Shown in pieces: positions 28,388 to 33,154 of a stretch of DNA of 64,000 nucleotides. Each line of letters begins with the position of its first letter. Positions within the stretch are counted from its first letter, which is position 1. The notes beneath the pieces were generated by a model. It was not told the origin of the DNA, made no database searches, and worked only from the letters and a program-made list of their open reading frames with translations. The position numbers and the translations under genes were made by a program. The stretch is from Salinibacterium sp. SWN167 (lineage in GTDB: Bacteria; Actinomycetota; Actinomycetes; Actinomycetales; Microbacteriaceae): positions 124,001-188,000 of the forward strand of contig NZ_JADYWU010000002.1 in the NCBI RefSeq assembly GCF_015864665.1, in the 5' to 3' direction.

Positions 28388-28653
28388 TCGAACCCTCTCG
28401 GATGCCGCGGCGGTGTTACAGGGCTCCGGAGCGCTGGCACAGTGGCAGGTTCGCAGACTAGCAAACAGCCCTATGGATGCCGCAGCCGAGCTGTGGAAAA
28501 CCAGCCAGGAGATACGCCCCAATGGTGCATCGCGACAAGCCCCAAGTACTCCCACACCAAGCACTGCACAGGAGTAGCGTGAGATATATAGCGGTGCATT
28601 GATGGACTGTGAAAGGCATAGCCCAGAGGTCGCCGCAGAAGGCATGGCATCCC

Positions 28654-31176
28654 ATGAAGTTGGTCGTTGTTGGAGGAGTTGCTGGAGGCGCGTCGGTTGC
28701 AGCCCGCGCGCGCAGGCTTGACGAAAGTGCAGACATTGTCGTGCTGGAGCGCGGCCATCACGTGTCATTCGCGAACTGCGGATTGCCGTACCACATTGGT
28801 GAAGTCATCACTGAGAGAGACCGACTGCTTCTGCAGACGCCCGAGAGCCTGCGCGAGTCTCTCAACATCGAAGTGCGTATCGCTCACGAGGTCACTGCGA
28901 TTGACCGCCAGGCCAAAACCGTTTCGGTACGTGAGGTCGACACCGGGCGTGAGTATGTCGAAAGTTACGACAACCTCGCCCTGTGCACGGGGGCGGAAGC
29001 CATCCGCCCACCGCTGCCGGGTATCGACCTTCCCGAGGTGCATGTCCTCCGTCGCATTGGCGACATGGATGCCATCAAAGCCGAACTCGATGCTGACCTA
29101 GAGAAGGCGGCCAGTGGCGCTCGCGGTCCCGTGCGTTGTGTCGTTATCGGTGCTGGCTACATCGGCCTTGAGATGGCCGAAAACCTGAAGCACCGTGGTG
29201 CGCTCGTGGATGTCGTGGAACTGAGCGACCAGATTCTTCCGCCTCTCGACCACGAGATGTCGGTTCCCGTTGAACACCACCTCCGTAGCCGCGGAATCAC
29301 TCTTCACCTCTCGACGGGGGCTGCCGCCTTCGCACCGCGCACCGGCGGAGGGGTGACGGTGGAGCTCACCAACTCGACCACTCTTGAGGCGGATGTCGTC
29401 ATCCTGTCGGTCGGAGTTCGACCGAGCGTTGGCCTTGCGAAGGACGCCGGTCTCGACCTGGGCGAGCATGGTGGGCTGGCCGTTGACACCCACATGCGCA
29501 CCTCTGACCCTCACATTTGGGCTGCCGGCGACTCGGTCGAAACCCCGAACACGGTGCTGCCGGGCTCCTGGCTCGCGCCGCTGGCGGGGCCCGCTAATCG
29601 CGAAGCGCGCGTTGCTGCCGAAAATATCTGCGGGCGTGACACCGAGTACAAATCCACTCAGGGCACCTCGATTGTGAAGATCTTCGAGATGGTTGCGGGC
29701 GGCACCGGCGCGACGGAACGCCAGTTGCTGGCCGCGGGCGTCACGTATCGGGCCGTGCACGTGCATCCATCCGGCCACGCTGGTTACTACCCGGGTACCG
29801 CGATGATGCACATCAAGCTGCTCTTCACTCCTGACTCGGGAAAGGTGCTCGGCGCTCAGGTCACCGGTTTCGATGGCGTCGATAAGCGCCTCGATGTTTT
29901 CGCCACTGCGCTTCGTGCCGGCCTCACTGTCTGGGATCTTGAAGAACTCGAGCTCGCCTACGCCCCGCCGTTTGGTTCGGCCAAGGACCCGGTGAATATG
30001 GCCGGCTTCGTCGCCAGCAACGTCCTGCTCGGCGACCTGAATCTCTGGTACGCGCAGGACTACCCACACGCCACCGACGGTGCGCGCATTATTGACGTGC
30101 GCACGCCAGAAGAGTTCTCCATCTTCCACCTGCCCGGCGCCGAGAACGTGCCGCTTGCGACCCTCCGCACCGACACCGGCGACTGGGATCGGTCAGTAGG
30201 CCTGCGTCTCTACTGTTCCGTCGGTTTCCGCAGTTACCTTGCCTACCGCATCCTTGTGCAGCTGGGATTTACGGATGTCGCCACGCTGTCGGGCGGATCC
30301 GAAACGTTCCGAGCGTGGCATGAGGTCGAGCCCGACACCGACGGACCGATCGAGCCAGAAACCTCGTACGCCGAAGCAGCCGAAGCGCTCAACTCGGCTC
30401 GTGTCGCCGCCCACGTGGCGAACGGCACGGGTGTCTCGGTGAATCTGGACTGCACGGGGCTCGCGTGTCCAGGGCCGATCATGAAGCTTGCGACCGAAAT
30501 GAAGGGACTCAACCTCGGCGACGAGATCGTCGTTCATGTATCTGACCCTGGCTTCGCGAGCGATGCGCCCGCGTGGGTGCGCCGCAACGGTCACGAACTG
30601 TTGGCCATCGAACCGGAGGGGCCCGGCTATGTGGCCACCATCCGCAAGGCTGGTCCCGAGGCGCTCTTGCTCGCCGGCGGTGGAGGAGCCGTTGCCGCCC
30701 CGGCGAAACCCAAGGTGTCATTTGTGGTGTTCTCGGGCGACCTCGACAAGGTGATCGCCGCGTTCATCATCGCCAACGGTGCTGTCTCGATGGGCGAAGA
30801 AGTTTCGATGTTCTTCACCTTCTGGGGCCTGAACGCGCTGCGTCAGCAGAAGCCACCGAAGCGTCAGCGTAAGGCGATGGACAAGCTCTTCGCCGGCATG
30901 ATGCCCGCCGGTGCCGACAAACTCACGCTCTCGCAGATGCACATGATGGGTGCAGGCACGGCGATGATCAAGAAGACAATGAAGAAGAATGGCGTGCACT
31001 CGCTGCCCGAACTCATGGAATCGGCGATGGAGGGCGGCGCTCGCATCATCGGCTGCACCATGACGATGGACCTTCTCGGCATCGCCGAATCTGACCTCAT
31101 TGAGGGTGTCGAGCTCGGTGGGGTCGCCACGTTCTTGGGCGAAGCCGCCGAATCCACGACGACGCTGTTCATCTAA
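28654..31176 (+). CDS. Four-domain FAD CoA-disulfide/persulfide reductase fused to rhodanese, TusA and DsrE domains
   Basis: 840 aa. Domain 1 (about 1-450) is an FAD/NAD(P)H disulfide reductase: KLVVVGGVAGGASVAARARR at the start, redox Cys42 in FANCGLPYHIG, an NAD site at VIGAGYIGLEMAENL, and FAD-contact IWAAGDSVE. Domain 2 (about 465-560) is a rhodanese with active Cys521 in LYCSVGFRSY. Domain 3 (about 595-670) is TusA-like with LDCTGLACPGPIMKLATEM (CPGP at 605-608). Domain 4 (about 685-840) is DsrE-like, FVVFSGDLDKVIAAFIIANG. Such fusions pass sulfane sulfur between cysteines and reduce CoA persulfide or disulfide. The start ATG follows AGAAGG; an upstream in-frame start is less likely. Confidence 0.9.
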   Translation: MKLVVVGGVAGGASVAARARRLDESADIVVLERGHHVSFANCGLPYHIGEVITERDRLLLQTPESLRESLNIEVRIAHEVTAIDRQAKTVSVREVDTGREYVESYDNLALCTGAEAIRPPLPGIDLPEVHVLRRIGDMDAIKAELDADLEKAASGARGPVRCVVIGAGYIGLEMAENLKHRGALVDVVELSDQILPPLDHEMSVPVEHHLRSRGITLHLSTGAAAFAPRTGGGVTVELTNSTTLEADVVILSVGVRPSVGLAKDAGLDLGEHGGLAVDTHMRTSDPHIWAAGDSVETPNTVLPGSWLAPLAGPANREARVAAENICGRDTEYKSTQGTSIVKIFEMVAGGTGATERQLLAAGVTYRAVHVHPSGHAGYYPGTAMMHIKLLFTPDSGKVLGAQVTGFDGVDKRLDVFATALRAGLTVWDLEELELAYAPPFGSAKDPVNMAGFVASNVLLGDLNLWYAQDYPHATDGARIIDVRTPEEFSIFHLPGAENVPLATLRTDTGDWDRSVGLRLYCSVGFRSYLAYRILVQLGFTDVATLSGGSETFRAWHEVEPDTDGPIEPETSYAEAAEALNSARVAAHVANGTGVSVNLDCTGLACPGPIMKLATEMKGLNLGDEIVVHVSDPGFASDAPAWVRRNGHELLAIEPEGPGYVATIRKAGPEALLLAGGGGAVAAPAKPKVSFVVFSGDLDKVIAAFIIANGAVSMGEEVSMFFTFWGLNALRQQKPPKRQRKAMDKLFAGMMPAGADKLTLSQMHMMGAGTAMIKKTMKKNGVHSLPELMESAMEGGARIIGCTMTMDLLGIAESDLIEGVELGGVATFLGEAAESTTTLFI

Positions 31177-31187
31177 CACCGTGCTGA

Positions 31188-31853
31188 TTGTCTACACGTC
31201 CTCACTCGCGGGTCGTCCCCGTGGGTGAGGGCGGCTGGCGCGAACGGTTCTTTCGTCAGGGATTCATCAAGCTGTCTCCGACGATGGATGCCCGGGGTGG
31301 CGACACCCACCGTGCTGAACTGTTTCGCGCCATCTCCGGCACGGTGGTCGAGGTCGGCGCGGGAACCGGCACCACTTTTCAGCACTACGGTTCGGCGGTG
31401 GATTCCGTTCACGCCGTCGAGCCGGATGCCGAACTGCGGTCGATCGCCGAGGCTGCGGCGCTGAAGGCTGGCGTCCCCATCACCGTCAGCGACGGCACCG
31501 CAGAAGCGTTACCGCTCGCCACCAACAGCTGCGACTGGGTCGTGTGCAGCCTTGTGCTGTGCACGGTCCCTGATCAGCAGGCGGCACTCGCCGAATTCAC
31601 CCGCGTGCTCAAACCGGGCGGGCACCTCGCGTTTTACGAGCATGTGCGTTCGAGCAATCGTGTGGTGGCGACGGTAGAGGATCTGCTCACTCCGGCGTGG
31701 GCCGCGATAGCGGGCGGATGCCGCCCCAACCGCGACACCCTTGCCGCGATCGAAGCCGCCGGTTTCGAAGTCGATGTCGTCGACCGGTTCGGCTTCTCCC
31801 CGCATCCGATATCGCCTCCCGTTGCCCATATCTCGGGCACTGCGCACTTGTAG
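31188..31853 (+). CDS. Class I SAM-dependent methyltransferase
   Basis: About 210-221 aa. Motif I is VVEVGAGTGTTFQHYGS near residue 51, then an acidic strand end at AVEPDAELR, motif II/III-like CDWVVCSLVLCTVPDQQAAL, and LKPGGHLAFYEHVRS. This resembles small-molecule (ubiE/COQ5-like) methyltransferases. The start is uncertain: TTG at 31188 or GTG at 31221, neither with a strong ribosome site. It begins 11 bp after the persulfide reductase and is likely in the same transcript. Substrate unknown. Confidence 0.8.
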   Translation: MSTRPHSRVVPVGEGGWRERFFRQGFIKLSPTMDARGGDTHRAELFRAISGTVVEVGAGTGTTFQHYGSAVDSVHAVEPDAELRSIAEAAALKAGVPITVSDGTAEALPLATNSCDWVVCSLVLCTVPDQQAALAEFTRVLKPGGHLAFYEHVRSSNRVVATVEDLLTPAWAAIAGGCRPNRDTLAAIEAAGFEVDVVDRFGFSPHPISPPVAHISGTAHL

Positions 31854-31958
31854 CGGGAGCGCGGCTTCGCGTCCTGAGGGAGGGAGTTTGCGGAGAAATG
31901 TCAGCGGCTGATAGTAGATTTAAAGAAAATTGGCCGACACGCCGAGACACTACATCTG

Positions 31959-31993
31959 GGGTAATGACATGGGTGTCATTACCCATATATAGT
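31959..31993 (+). promoter_or_regulatory. Promoter overlapped by a perfect 11-bp operator-like dyad
   Basis: GGGTAATGACA (31959-31969) and TGTCATTACCC (31974-31984) form a perfect inverted repeat with the four-base centre TGGG. The left arm contains ATGACA (31964-31969), five of six bases of a -35 box. TATAGT (31988-31993) is a good -10, 18 bases further on. A bound dimer would therefore block polymerase. The target is the small peptide gene at 32046, with a leader of about 45 bases. Confidence 0.75.
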
Positions 31994-32045
31994 GAAATCT
32001 CCGACAAACCGCCGGAAACTTCAAGAAGACTTTAAGGAGGATCGA

Positions 32046-32129
32046 ATGGATAACGAAAACGACACCGTTGGCGGATATGCAATTCCCGTCGACCCAATGG
32101 ATCTTCTGCAGTGCGACAGCTGCCAGTAA
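32046..32129 (+). CDS. 27-residue cysteine-containing peptide in its own regulated transcription unit
   Basis: The ATG at 32046 is preceded by TAAGGAGG with five to six bases spacing, one of the best ribosome sites in the window. The peptide starts MDNEND, has a middle TVGGYAIP, and ends DPMDLLQCDSCQ, so both cysteines form CxxC near the C-terminus. It has no lysine or arginine and is strongly acidic, without a signal peptide or membrane span. The gene has its own promoter and dyad (31959-31993) and a strong hairpin at 32163-32197. Possible roles are a RiPP precursor, a metal- or redox-active microprotein, or a regulatory peptide. No maturation enzyme is next to it apart from the upstream methyltransferase, which is 190 bp away. 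The family is not recognised. Confidence 0.7.
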   Translation: MDNENDTVGGYAIPVDPMDLLQCDSCQ

Positions 32130-32162
32130 AAACTTACTGAGCTAACGCCTCACAGAATTTCT

Positions 32163-32197
32163 GAAGCCCCGGCAGACCTCACGGTCTCCGGGGCTTC
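32163..32197 (+). terminator. Strong hairpin terminator after the 27-residue peptide gene
   Basis: GAAGCCCCGG (32163-32172) pairs fully with CCGGGGCTTC (32188-32197). Inside, AGACC pairs with GGTCT around a TCAC loop, with a single C bulge. It is followed by ACCCATTTAAC, only weakly T-rich. A small palindrome, CAGAATTTCTG (32153-32163), lies right before it. Confidence 0.8.
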
Positions 32198-32303
32198 ACC
32201 CATTTAACAGCCGCAACACAATCTGGCCGTAATCAACCGGCCCACAAACACAACCCCAATCTCACCCACACACGCATCGCCAACATTGCCTAAGCTGGAC
32301 ACC

Positions 32304-32750
32304 GTGCCAGTGAATAAAGAACTAGAAGGCCGGGTCTTCCCGCCCACGACCCCCTACCTCGTCGGGCGAGAAAAAGTACGCGAATTTGCGCGCGCCGTCT
32401 TCGCTCAAAGTCCGCTCAACCACGACCCCGAAGCCGCTAGAGCAGCAGGCTTCGCCGACGTCGTAGCACCGCCCACTTTCGCCGTCGTCATCCAAGAAGC
32501 TGGCCTCGCCCTTCTCCTGGCTGCCCCCGACACTGGCATCGACTTCTCGCGCATCGTGCACGGCGAACAGAAGTTCACCTCCACGCGACCCATCGTCGCT
32601 GGCGACGAGCTCACCGCCATCCTCACCGTCACGAGCATTAAGTCCCTCGGCGGCAACGACATGATCACCGCCGAAACCGCCATCAGTGATGCCGCAGGCG
32701 ACCACGTCGTCACCGCAACCTCCGTACTCGTCATGAGAGGCACAGAATGA
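32304..32750 (+). CDS. MaoC-like dehydratase, N-terminal subunit type (HadA-like)
   Basis: About 148 aa, hotdog fold of the FAS1-type dehydratase family. Visible are TTPYLVGREKVREFARAVFA, AAGFADVVAPPTFAVVIQEA, and FSRIVHGEQKFTSTRPIVAG. In mycobacteria HadA pairs with HadB to dehydrate 3-hydroxyacyl-ACP in fatty-acid elongation. The GTG at 32304 is taken as start because TAAGCT (32291-32296) is placed like a -10 for a leaderless transcript. TTG at 32286 and GTG at 32310 remain possible. The 3' end overlaps the partner by four bases. Confidence 0.82.
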   Translation: MPVNKELEGRVFPPTTPYLVGREKVREFARAVFAQSPLNHDPEAARAAGFADVVAPPTFAVVIQEAGLALLLAAPDTGIDFSRIVHGEQKFTSTRPIVAGDELTAILTVTSIKSLGGNDMITAETAISDAAGDHVVTATSVLVMRGTE

Positions 32751-33154
32751 GCGACCTCGTCGTCGGCCAAGAACTCATCACCGGCAAAGTCACCCTCACC
32801 CGCTTCTCGCTCGTGCGCTACGCGGGAGCATCCGGAGACTTCAACCCCATCCATTACCGGGATGACGTTGCCGCTTCCGTAGGCCTCCCCGGTGTGCTCG
32901 CCCACGGCATGCTCACCATGGGCCTCGCCGTACAACCCGTCATTGACTGGATGGGCGACCGCGGCGAACTCGTCGAATACGGTGTGCGCTTCACTCGCCC
33001 TGTCGTCGTCGACGGCAACGGCGGCGTTGTTGTTACCGTCACCGCCAAGGTTGGCGCCATCGAAGACGACGTGACGCGCATCGACCTCACTGTCAGCGCC
33101 AACAACCAAACCGTGCTCGGCAAAGCACAAGTGAGGGTCAAACTCCACCAATGA
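32747..33154 (+). CDS. MaoC-like dehydratase, catalytic subunit (HadB-like)
   Basis: 135 aa hotdog protein. The R-hydratase motif is FNPIHYRDDVAASVGLPGVL, followed by AHGMLTMGLAVQP (residues 27-58); the Asn/His in this loop are the catalytic pair in the family. It overlaps the HadA-like gene upstream (ATGA) and murB downstream (ATGA), so all three are translationally coupled. The likely role is the dehydration step of a 3-hydroxyacyl-ACP or -CoA. Confidence 0.88.
   Translation: MSDLVVGQELITGKVTLTRFSLVRYAGASGDFNPIHYRDDVAASVGLPGVLAHGMLTMGLAVQPVIDWMGDRGELVEYGVRFTRPVVVDGNGGVVVTVTAKVGAIEDDVTRIDLTVSANNQTVLGKAQVRVKLHQ

Follow-up and report, generated by a model that had tools for sequence, protein, structure and literature searches.

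How should a gene of 27 codons be read when it has a promoter and a strong hairpin of its own, and encodes a peptide that resembles no named family? Such a gene lies in the window, the whole stretch of 64,000 nucleotides of Salinibacterium sp. SWN167 DNA that was analysed here. The original prediction described it as an unannotatable peptide in an operator-controlled, terminated transcription unit, and offered a RiPP precursor, a thiol or metal microprotein, or a signal as possible identities. The features of the locus are as follows:

31947..31962, + strand: NrdR box 1, ACACTACATCTGGGGT, fitting the consensus at 14 of 16 positions
31959..31984, no strand: dyad GGGTAATGACA-TGGG-TGTCATTACCC, spanning the -35 element, with its core within the 17-bp spacer between the NrdR boxes
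31964..31993, + strand: promoter from the promoter scan, with -35 ATGACA (31964-31969), 18 bp, and -10 TATAGT (31988-31993)
31980..31995, + strand: NrdR box 2, TACCCATATATAGTGA, overlapping the -10 element, 17 bp from box 1
32033..32040, + strand: ribosome binding site TAAGGAGG, read in the sequence
32046..32129, + strand: 27-aa peptide gene, predicted stand-alone NrdA redox tail (CxxC); 27 codons plus TAA, ATG at 32046, stop included
32162..32198, + strand: hairpin found by folding, likely terminator, without a T-run
32286..33154, + strand: two dehydratase genes of the MaoC/FAS1 type, which mark the synteny of this copy in relatives and lie outside the system

The frame is translated into MDNENDTVGGYAIPVDPMDLLQCDSCQ, in which CDSC forms a CxxC pair at the end of the peptide. 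All elements originally described (dyad, -35, -10, ribosome binding site, ATG, 84-bp frame and hairpin) are present in the sequence, and the promoter scan of the locus returned one promoter-like site against 0.4 expected from shuffles. The hairpin is indeed strong (-33.5 kcal/mol, z -5.84, for an 86-nt stretch), but the T-run is absent and the consensus terminator scan of the + strand did not call the hairpin. An alternative 45-aa reading in the same frame starts from GTG 31992; the ATG position itself is M in 29 of 30 copies located away from nrdA (hereafter distal copies, the window copy included) and GTG in one. The dehydratase genes are followed by murB, which starts at 33151, and at least one of these three genes lies within 1.5 kb on either side in 25 of the 30 best-scoring distal loci. 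Upstream, an 855-aa fusion of a CoA-disulfide-reductase-like enzyme with rhodanese, TusA and DsrE2 domains (28609-31176, +) is followed by a methyltransferase gene (31188-31853).

The peptide and the C-terminus of NrdA

A search of the window genome retrieved a paralogue, MNRENTVEDYFVPVDPMDDLQCDSCQ, at G000:C2:341724-341801, with 18 of 26 aligned residues identical to the window peptide. Neither peptide matches any NCBIfam family, a Pfam search gave a single match far under the cut-off, and solved structures queried with the 26-aa paralogue gave none. The paralogue is located between genes for the two subunits of class I ribonucleotide reductase (RNR): it is preceded by alpha, NrdA (NCBIfam NF005101, 1609 bits), and followed by beta, NrdB. 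It starts directly behind the nrdA stop in another reading frame, and the window copy lies far from nrdA. With a profile built from 20 peptides, all with the CxxC, we screened 297 genomes from the order and 296 from the phylum; besides the window genome, 25 and 3 of these, respectively, gave a match. NrdA reads straight into the tail motif as its own C-terminus at 25 loci, all outside the family: 24 of them came from the order search and belong to other families, and one is from a different order of the same class. In the other families of the order this fused end reads ...CPVDPMERLQCESCQ, with ...VGGVACPVDPMERLQCESCQ as a further example; three remaining profile loci show no nrdA (L100, a weak match in the own family with E 0.001, L104 and L105). 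The fused tails carry an extra conserved cysteine (A-C-PVDP) that the free peptides have lost. An exact pattern for the peptide matched 25 genome contigs, whose titles name the Microbacteriaceae, name genera and groups of that family, or leave the contig unclassified. Since what is a gene by itself here forms the end of NrdA in related families, the peptide corresponds to the end of NrdA, and with a paralogue beside nrdA and nrdB and fused C-termini elsewhere it can be placed after all.

In the family loci, the catalytic chain ends before this tail. Of 36 countable family loci, 35 have no cysteine in the NrdA tail downstream of the YYLH motif; the exception, L052, has NrdA out of frame in a draft genome, and L064, missed by the YYLH search, shows no cysteine in its NrdA end as read. 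All 23 countable fused NrdA have three cysteines in this region; these had been sorted by ending in CxxC, and the finding is that split NrdA tails are without any cysteine. Three cysteines in the body and a YY pair are invariant between NrdA of the window genome and six fused NrdA; we assume for these residues the catalytic roles that are generally ascribed to them. A tree of 58 NrdA bodies (35 split and 23 fused, with L052 left out) places split and fused proteins on two sides of one branch with support 100/95, which fits one split event. Behind the nrdA stop, a separate peptide gene is found in 32 loci. In 31 of 31 loci, its nearest usable start (the codon closest to the nrdA stop, with ATG preferred) falls between 1 nt ahead of the stop's first base and 20 nt past it, and in 21 of them it overlaps the stop, a position that fits coupled translation. 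The peptide is in a frame other than that of nrdA in 28 of these 31 loci, and in the nrdA frame behind the stop in three.

Because NrdA stops before the tail, and what is left of its own tail is without cysteines, we regard it as settled, at the level of sequence, that the window gene encodes the detached C-terminal CxxC redox tail of class I RNR NrdA. The arrangement is that of a split RNR, in which a catalytic chain without tail cysteines co-occurs with a chain that has them; a covalent link to the catalytic subunit is absent, the peptide being a separate gene.

Two further features of the split enzymes can be recorded here. The stump of NrdA mostly ends in a basic, glycine-rich sequence, RRGFGFGG or RKGFGFGG (e.g. 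L003:8650-8719), where the acidic peptide might dock. In L054-L056 (genus g35), NrdA matches NF005101 to position 821 or 822 of 822 and has a tail without cysteine, so the model seems to describe the tail-less enzyme.

Distribution, selection and promoter

The family was surveyed in 299 genomes (NrdA E <=1e-100, peptide E <=0.1, class Ib NrdE E <=1e-150), with NrdA found in 130, the peptide in 138 and NrdE in 157. All 130 genomes with NrdA have the peptide. The eight peptide genomes without an NrdA match comprise three weak matches in NrdE genomes and five drafts: the 156 class-Ib-only genomes gave weak peptide matches in these three (E 0.08, 0.08 and 4e-4) and strong ones in none, while 13 genomes had neither NrdA nor NrdE at the cut-offs, the five drafts with the peptide being among them. 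NrdA and NrdE occur together in one genome. With the three weak matches counted as absent, co-occurrence of NrdA and peptide gives a Fisher p of 9e-80, a value that is only illustrative because genomes of one family are not independent.

Copy number was followed in 60 genomes of our choice from the 130, mostly better assemblies. Every one of the 60 has a copy away from nrdA, and 19 have at least two. In 56, a copy also follows the NrdA match at a distance of up to 400 nt, and not all of these copies were read base by base; the four genomes without it are G015, G053, G123 and G138. The first of these, of 0.93 Mb, has its distal copy in the same dehydratase/murB neighbourhood. Overall, genomes contain from one to six peptide copies. 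Strong purifying selection acts on the last 18 codons in 30 distal copies (pN/pS 0.046, while the alternative frames of the same DNA give 3.1 and 4.0). These copies were picked by score, which favours similar sequences; for 38 other copies, mostly located beside nrdA but including a few mobile ones, pN/pS is 0.286. The distal copy is thus the more constrained one, and the copy beside nrdA evolves faster.

The promoter of the distal copy was compared with a consensus for the NrdR box that we wrote into the script. Box 1 of the window is close to box 1 of the nrdA promoter in the same genome, CCACTACATCTAGGGT. In a scan that permitted spacers of 15-19 bp, the two boxes were separated by exactly 17 bp in 30 of 30 distal loci, window included, and the promoter layout was identical in all of them. 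Boxes with spacers of 14-17 bp bind NrdR well, according to the accessible text of PMC12051234. Upstream of nrdA, two NrdR boxes lie 31-33 bp apart, start to start, in 34 of 35 loci (L067 being without them). A paired-box pattern, drawn up after both sites had been seen, occurs in the window genome at two places, the window promoter and upstream of nrdA, and its reversed control gave no match in that genome. NrdR is encoded in the same genome (gene at G000:C1:1911851). The locus thereby shows what is expected of a member of the NrdR regulon: two boxes at a permitted spacer, over a promoter, in a genome with nrdR. As judged from these sites, the regulator of the window promoter is most likely NrdR, acting through the two boxes.

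The dyad, on which the idea of operator control had been built, is a different matter. It has no second copy in the 3.0-Mb window genome at up to three mismatches, and upstream of nrdA it is absent in 35 of 35 loci. Its left arm, AATGACA, is kept in all 30 distal loci; its right arm reads TGTCATT in 14, TGTGATT in 15 and TGTAGTT in one, so that the repeat, perfect in the window, is not strictly symmetric among relatives. With its core within the spacer of the NrdR-type promoter, the dyad appears as an addition to that promoter. As the left arm is the -35 element and the right arm varies, either a second regulator or a constraint on the promoter could explain it, and the dyad may additionally have its own regulator. 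Part of the original prediction is borne out by these data. The peptide gene is conserved and separately controlled, although the NrdR boxes had gone unnamed, and a thiol microprotein was among the guesses. That the set of signals is not due to chance is seen from the uniqueness of the dyad, the pN/pS value and the layout common to all 30 loci. Conservation of the frame in relatives, the test that had been proposed, is likewise found, and with it the reading as a small RNA fails.

Copies on phages and plasmids

Tail copies are also carried by mobile elements. In viral contigs, DPMDxLQC matches 308 stretches, of which 302 held up on confirmation, and the best 80 were analysed. All of these best 80 have the motif with the CxxC at the end, none has the host dehydratase or murB genes, and 78 have no nrdA or nrdB relative within up to 8 kb, although larger contigs could carry nrdA elsewhere. 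The two others, L131 (4001-5124) and L152 (4001-6106), are viral contigs of >116 kb in which an nrdB relative lies close to the tail and the examined stretch contains no nrdA. When 20 neighbour proteins from 13 of the 80 loci were compared with PHROGs, 18 matched, among them terminase, portal, endolysin, integrase, primase and helicase. Ten proteins beside extra copies in bacterial genomes gave five matches (tail or tail fibre, endolysin, exonuclease and ParA) and five without.

A phage collection returned weak matches only (E 0.2 to 3, five records, a Pontimonas phage among them); the NrdA search of this collection covered at least 5000 records. The Clavibacter phages CN1A and CMP1 have the short unannotated frames MNNDNEYTVPIDPMDELICEGCQ and MGDGEYTVPQDPMDEFQCDSCQ, assigned as complete short frames with the motif and not by E-value. 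Plasmids of Clavibacter, Leifsonia and Gryllotalpicola have peptide matches in 19 records. On the plasmid of Leifsonia sp. ZF2019, a 33-aa copy (L076:4983-5084, WP_223361114.1) is annotated as ribonucleotide-diphosphate reductase subunit beta. In L128 (4191-4778, +), a 195-aa frame without Pfam or PHROG match has the tail motif at its end, which may reflect the addition of a tail to an unrelated protein or a chance in-frame extension.

Proposed mechanism, alternatives and known split reductases

RNR is an essential enzyme, and its swinging tail is treated as part of the catalytic subunit. How would a tail function that is no longer attached? In ordinary class I RNR, NrdA has a flexible tail whose CxxC pair acts on the active-site disulfide, reducing it after every turnover. 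Such C-terminal pairs are described as reducing the active site and as regaining their electrons from thioredoxin or glutaredoxin (PMC5704485, PMC3483043 and PMC9669993, in their accessible parts; the role of such tails is also treated in the available text of PMC4520616 and PMC9531940). We propose that the end of nrdA moved to a separate frame, beginning at or near the nrdA stop, when the split clade had its common ancestor; this frame is probably translated by coupling. A further copy, adjoining the dehydratase-murB genes and with an NrdR-type promoter of its own, is more conserved. The free peptide would enter the NrdA active site in trans, reduce the disulfide and leave, to be reduced in turn by the thioredoxin-type system of the cell. 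NrdR would raise the peptide dose together with nrdAB when dATP is low, and phages and plasmids would carry the tail alone, presumably raising host RNR turnover.

Fused-tail homology, the tail-less NrdA, co-occurrence, purifying selection, the NrdR-type promoter common with nrdA and the presence in phages are all seen in the sequences; binding in trans, electron transfer, NrdR binding and a benefit to phages are what we infer. By analogy with NrdJb of Pseudomonas aeruginosa, the free peptide should serve the tail-less NrdA, and we regard its action in trans as very likely, even though a peptide of 27 residues may bind weakly. Counting against this reading are the loss of the conserved cysteine of the fused tail, the faster evolution of the copy beside nrdA, and the five drafts with the peptide and no NrdA or NrdE. 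As a whole, a detached NrdA tail working in trans is the best explanation, and we hold it with high confidence.

Other explanations have to be weighed against it. A peptide derived from the RNR tail could have taken up a new role, as a free dithiol buffer, a regulator of NrdA/NrdB or a thioredoxin ligand, with a redoxin reducing the tail-less NrdA directly. Many genomes with several copies, viral copies without nrdA nearby and the lost cysteine would suit such a role; yet the peptide accompanies tail-less NrdA without exception in the 130 genomes, has retained its CxxC end and has an NrdR-type promoter in common with nrdA, and we consider a new role unlikely. Another possibility is that the nrdA split reflects faulty sequencing or assembly, or that frameshifting or readthrough restores the fused protein; this draws on the three loci with the peptide in the nrdA frame behind the stop and on the broken nrdA of the draft L052. 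The separate gene in 32 loci, its different frame in 28 of 31, and the 60 genomes that all have a distal copy, four of them with none beside nrdA, make this highly improbable.

The two remaining alternatives concern the window gene itself. It is short, acidic, has two cysteines and its own transcription unit, and a methyltransferase gene lies upstream in its own genome, all of which might be expected of a RiPP precursor, a metal microprotein or a secreted signal. Against these stand the homology to the NrdA C-terminus and the database searches, with no NCBIfam match and a Pfam match far under the cut-off; moreover, of 30 distal loci only 2 have the methyltransferase as a neighbour (the window genome and L006, with L004 counted as the same place as L001). 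A RiPP precursor was also rejected for the lack of a conserved modifying enzyme adjoining the gene, the conserved neighbours being dehydratase and murB, and of any RiPP family match. We found no support for a precursor or a signal, and this group of readings is scarcely credible. A non-coding RNA with an incidental frame would account for the strong hairpin and promoter, but would leave unexplained the low pN/pS of this frame against the other two and the same protein end in other contexts; its probability is close to nil.

For the detached tail working in trans, the consequences can be put in a broader form, which we think probable: throughout the clade, the redox arm of an essential class I RNR would be a diffusible peptide of 27 residues from a gene of its own, its dose set by NrdR and a second factor at the dyad, and phages would carry the arm alone, among the smallest auxiliary metabolic genes, speeding the host enzyme. 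This would be a class I split RNR with its tail shrunk to a microprotein. It would make the route of the tail to the active site, its action in trans and its limit on turnover testable by synthetic peptides, assign a role to tiny genes that are overlooked or wrongly named in annotation, and point to a minimal phage strategy for more dNTPs.

A literature search, conducted mostly without subscription journals, recognised no earlier account of a free class I RNR tail. Several known systems are nevertheless related. The CxxC tail of class I RNR alpha belongs to the same sequence family, with the same protein end and the same CxxC, and is fused in other families of the order; a C-terminal CxxC occurs in 1737 of 2022 class I sequences (PMC9531940, available portion). 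What differs is that here it is a separate gene product. With the NrdR regulon, the window gene has in common the paired 16-bp boxes over the promoter (PMC12051234, accessible text), whereas the window-type spacer adds a conserved AATGACA-N4-TGT(C/G)ATT, absent at nrdA. In Aeromonas phage Aeh1, class I nrdA is likewise found in two genes, nrdA-a and nrdA-b, and is still functional, but there a homing endonuclease insertion made the split, in a phage, and the accessible part of the report does not describe a free redox tail (PMC3653736). A further related system is the split class II NrdJa/NrdJb of P. aeruginosa, where catalytic and thiol-exchange parts are separate proteins and NrdJb performs a reductive dithiol exchange needed in vivo; in 2015, proteobacterial class II NrdJ was given as the only split RNR in a non-viral organism (PMC4520616, in the text available). 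That system is class II and B12-dependent, with an NrdJb of 229 residues encoded in the same operon (PMC4520616, same text), while the system described here is class I, with a tail of about 22-31 residues in most copies, an unlinked copy with its own promoter, and phage-borne copies. Compared with known split RNRs, what is unexpected is the unlinked copy, present in 60 of 60 genomes and placed here in an NrdR-type unit, together with wide carriage by phages as a lone tail.
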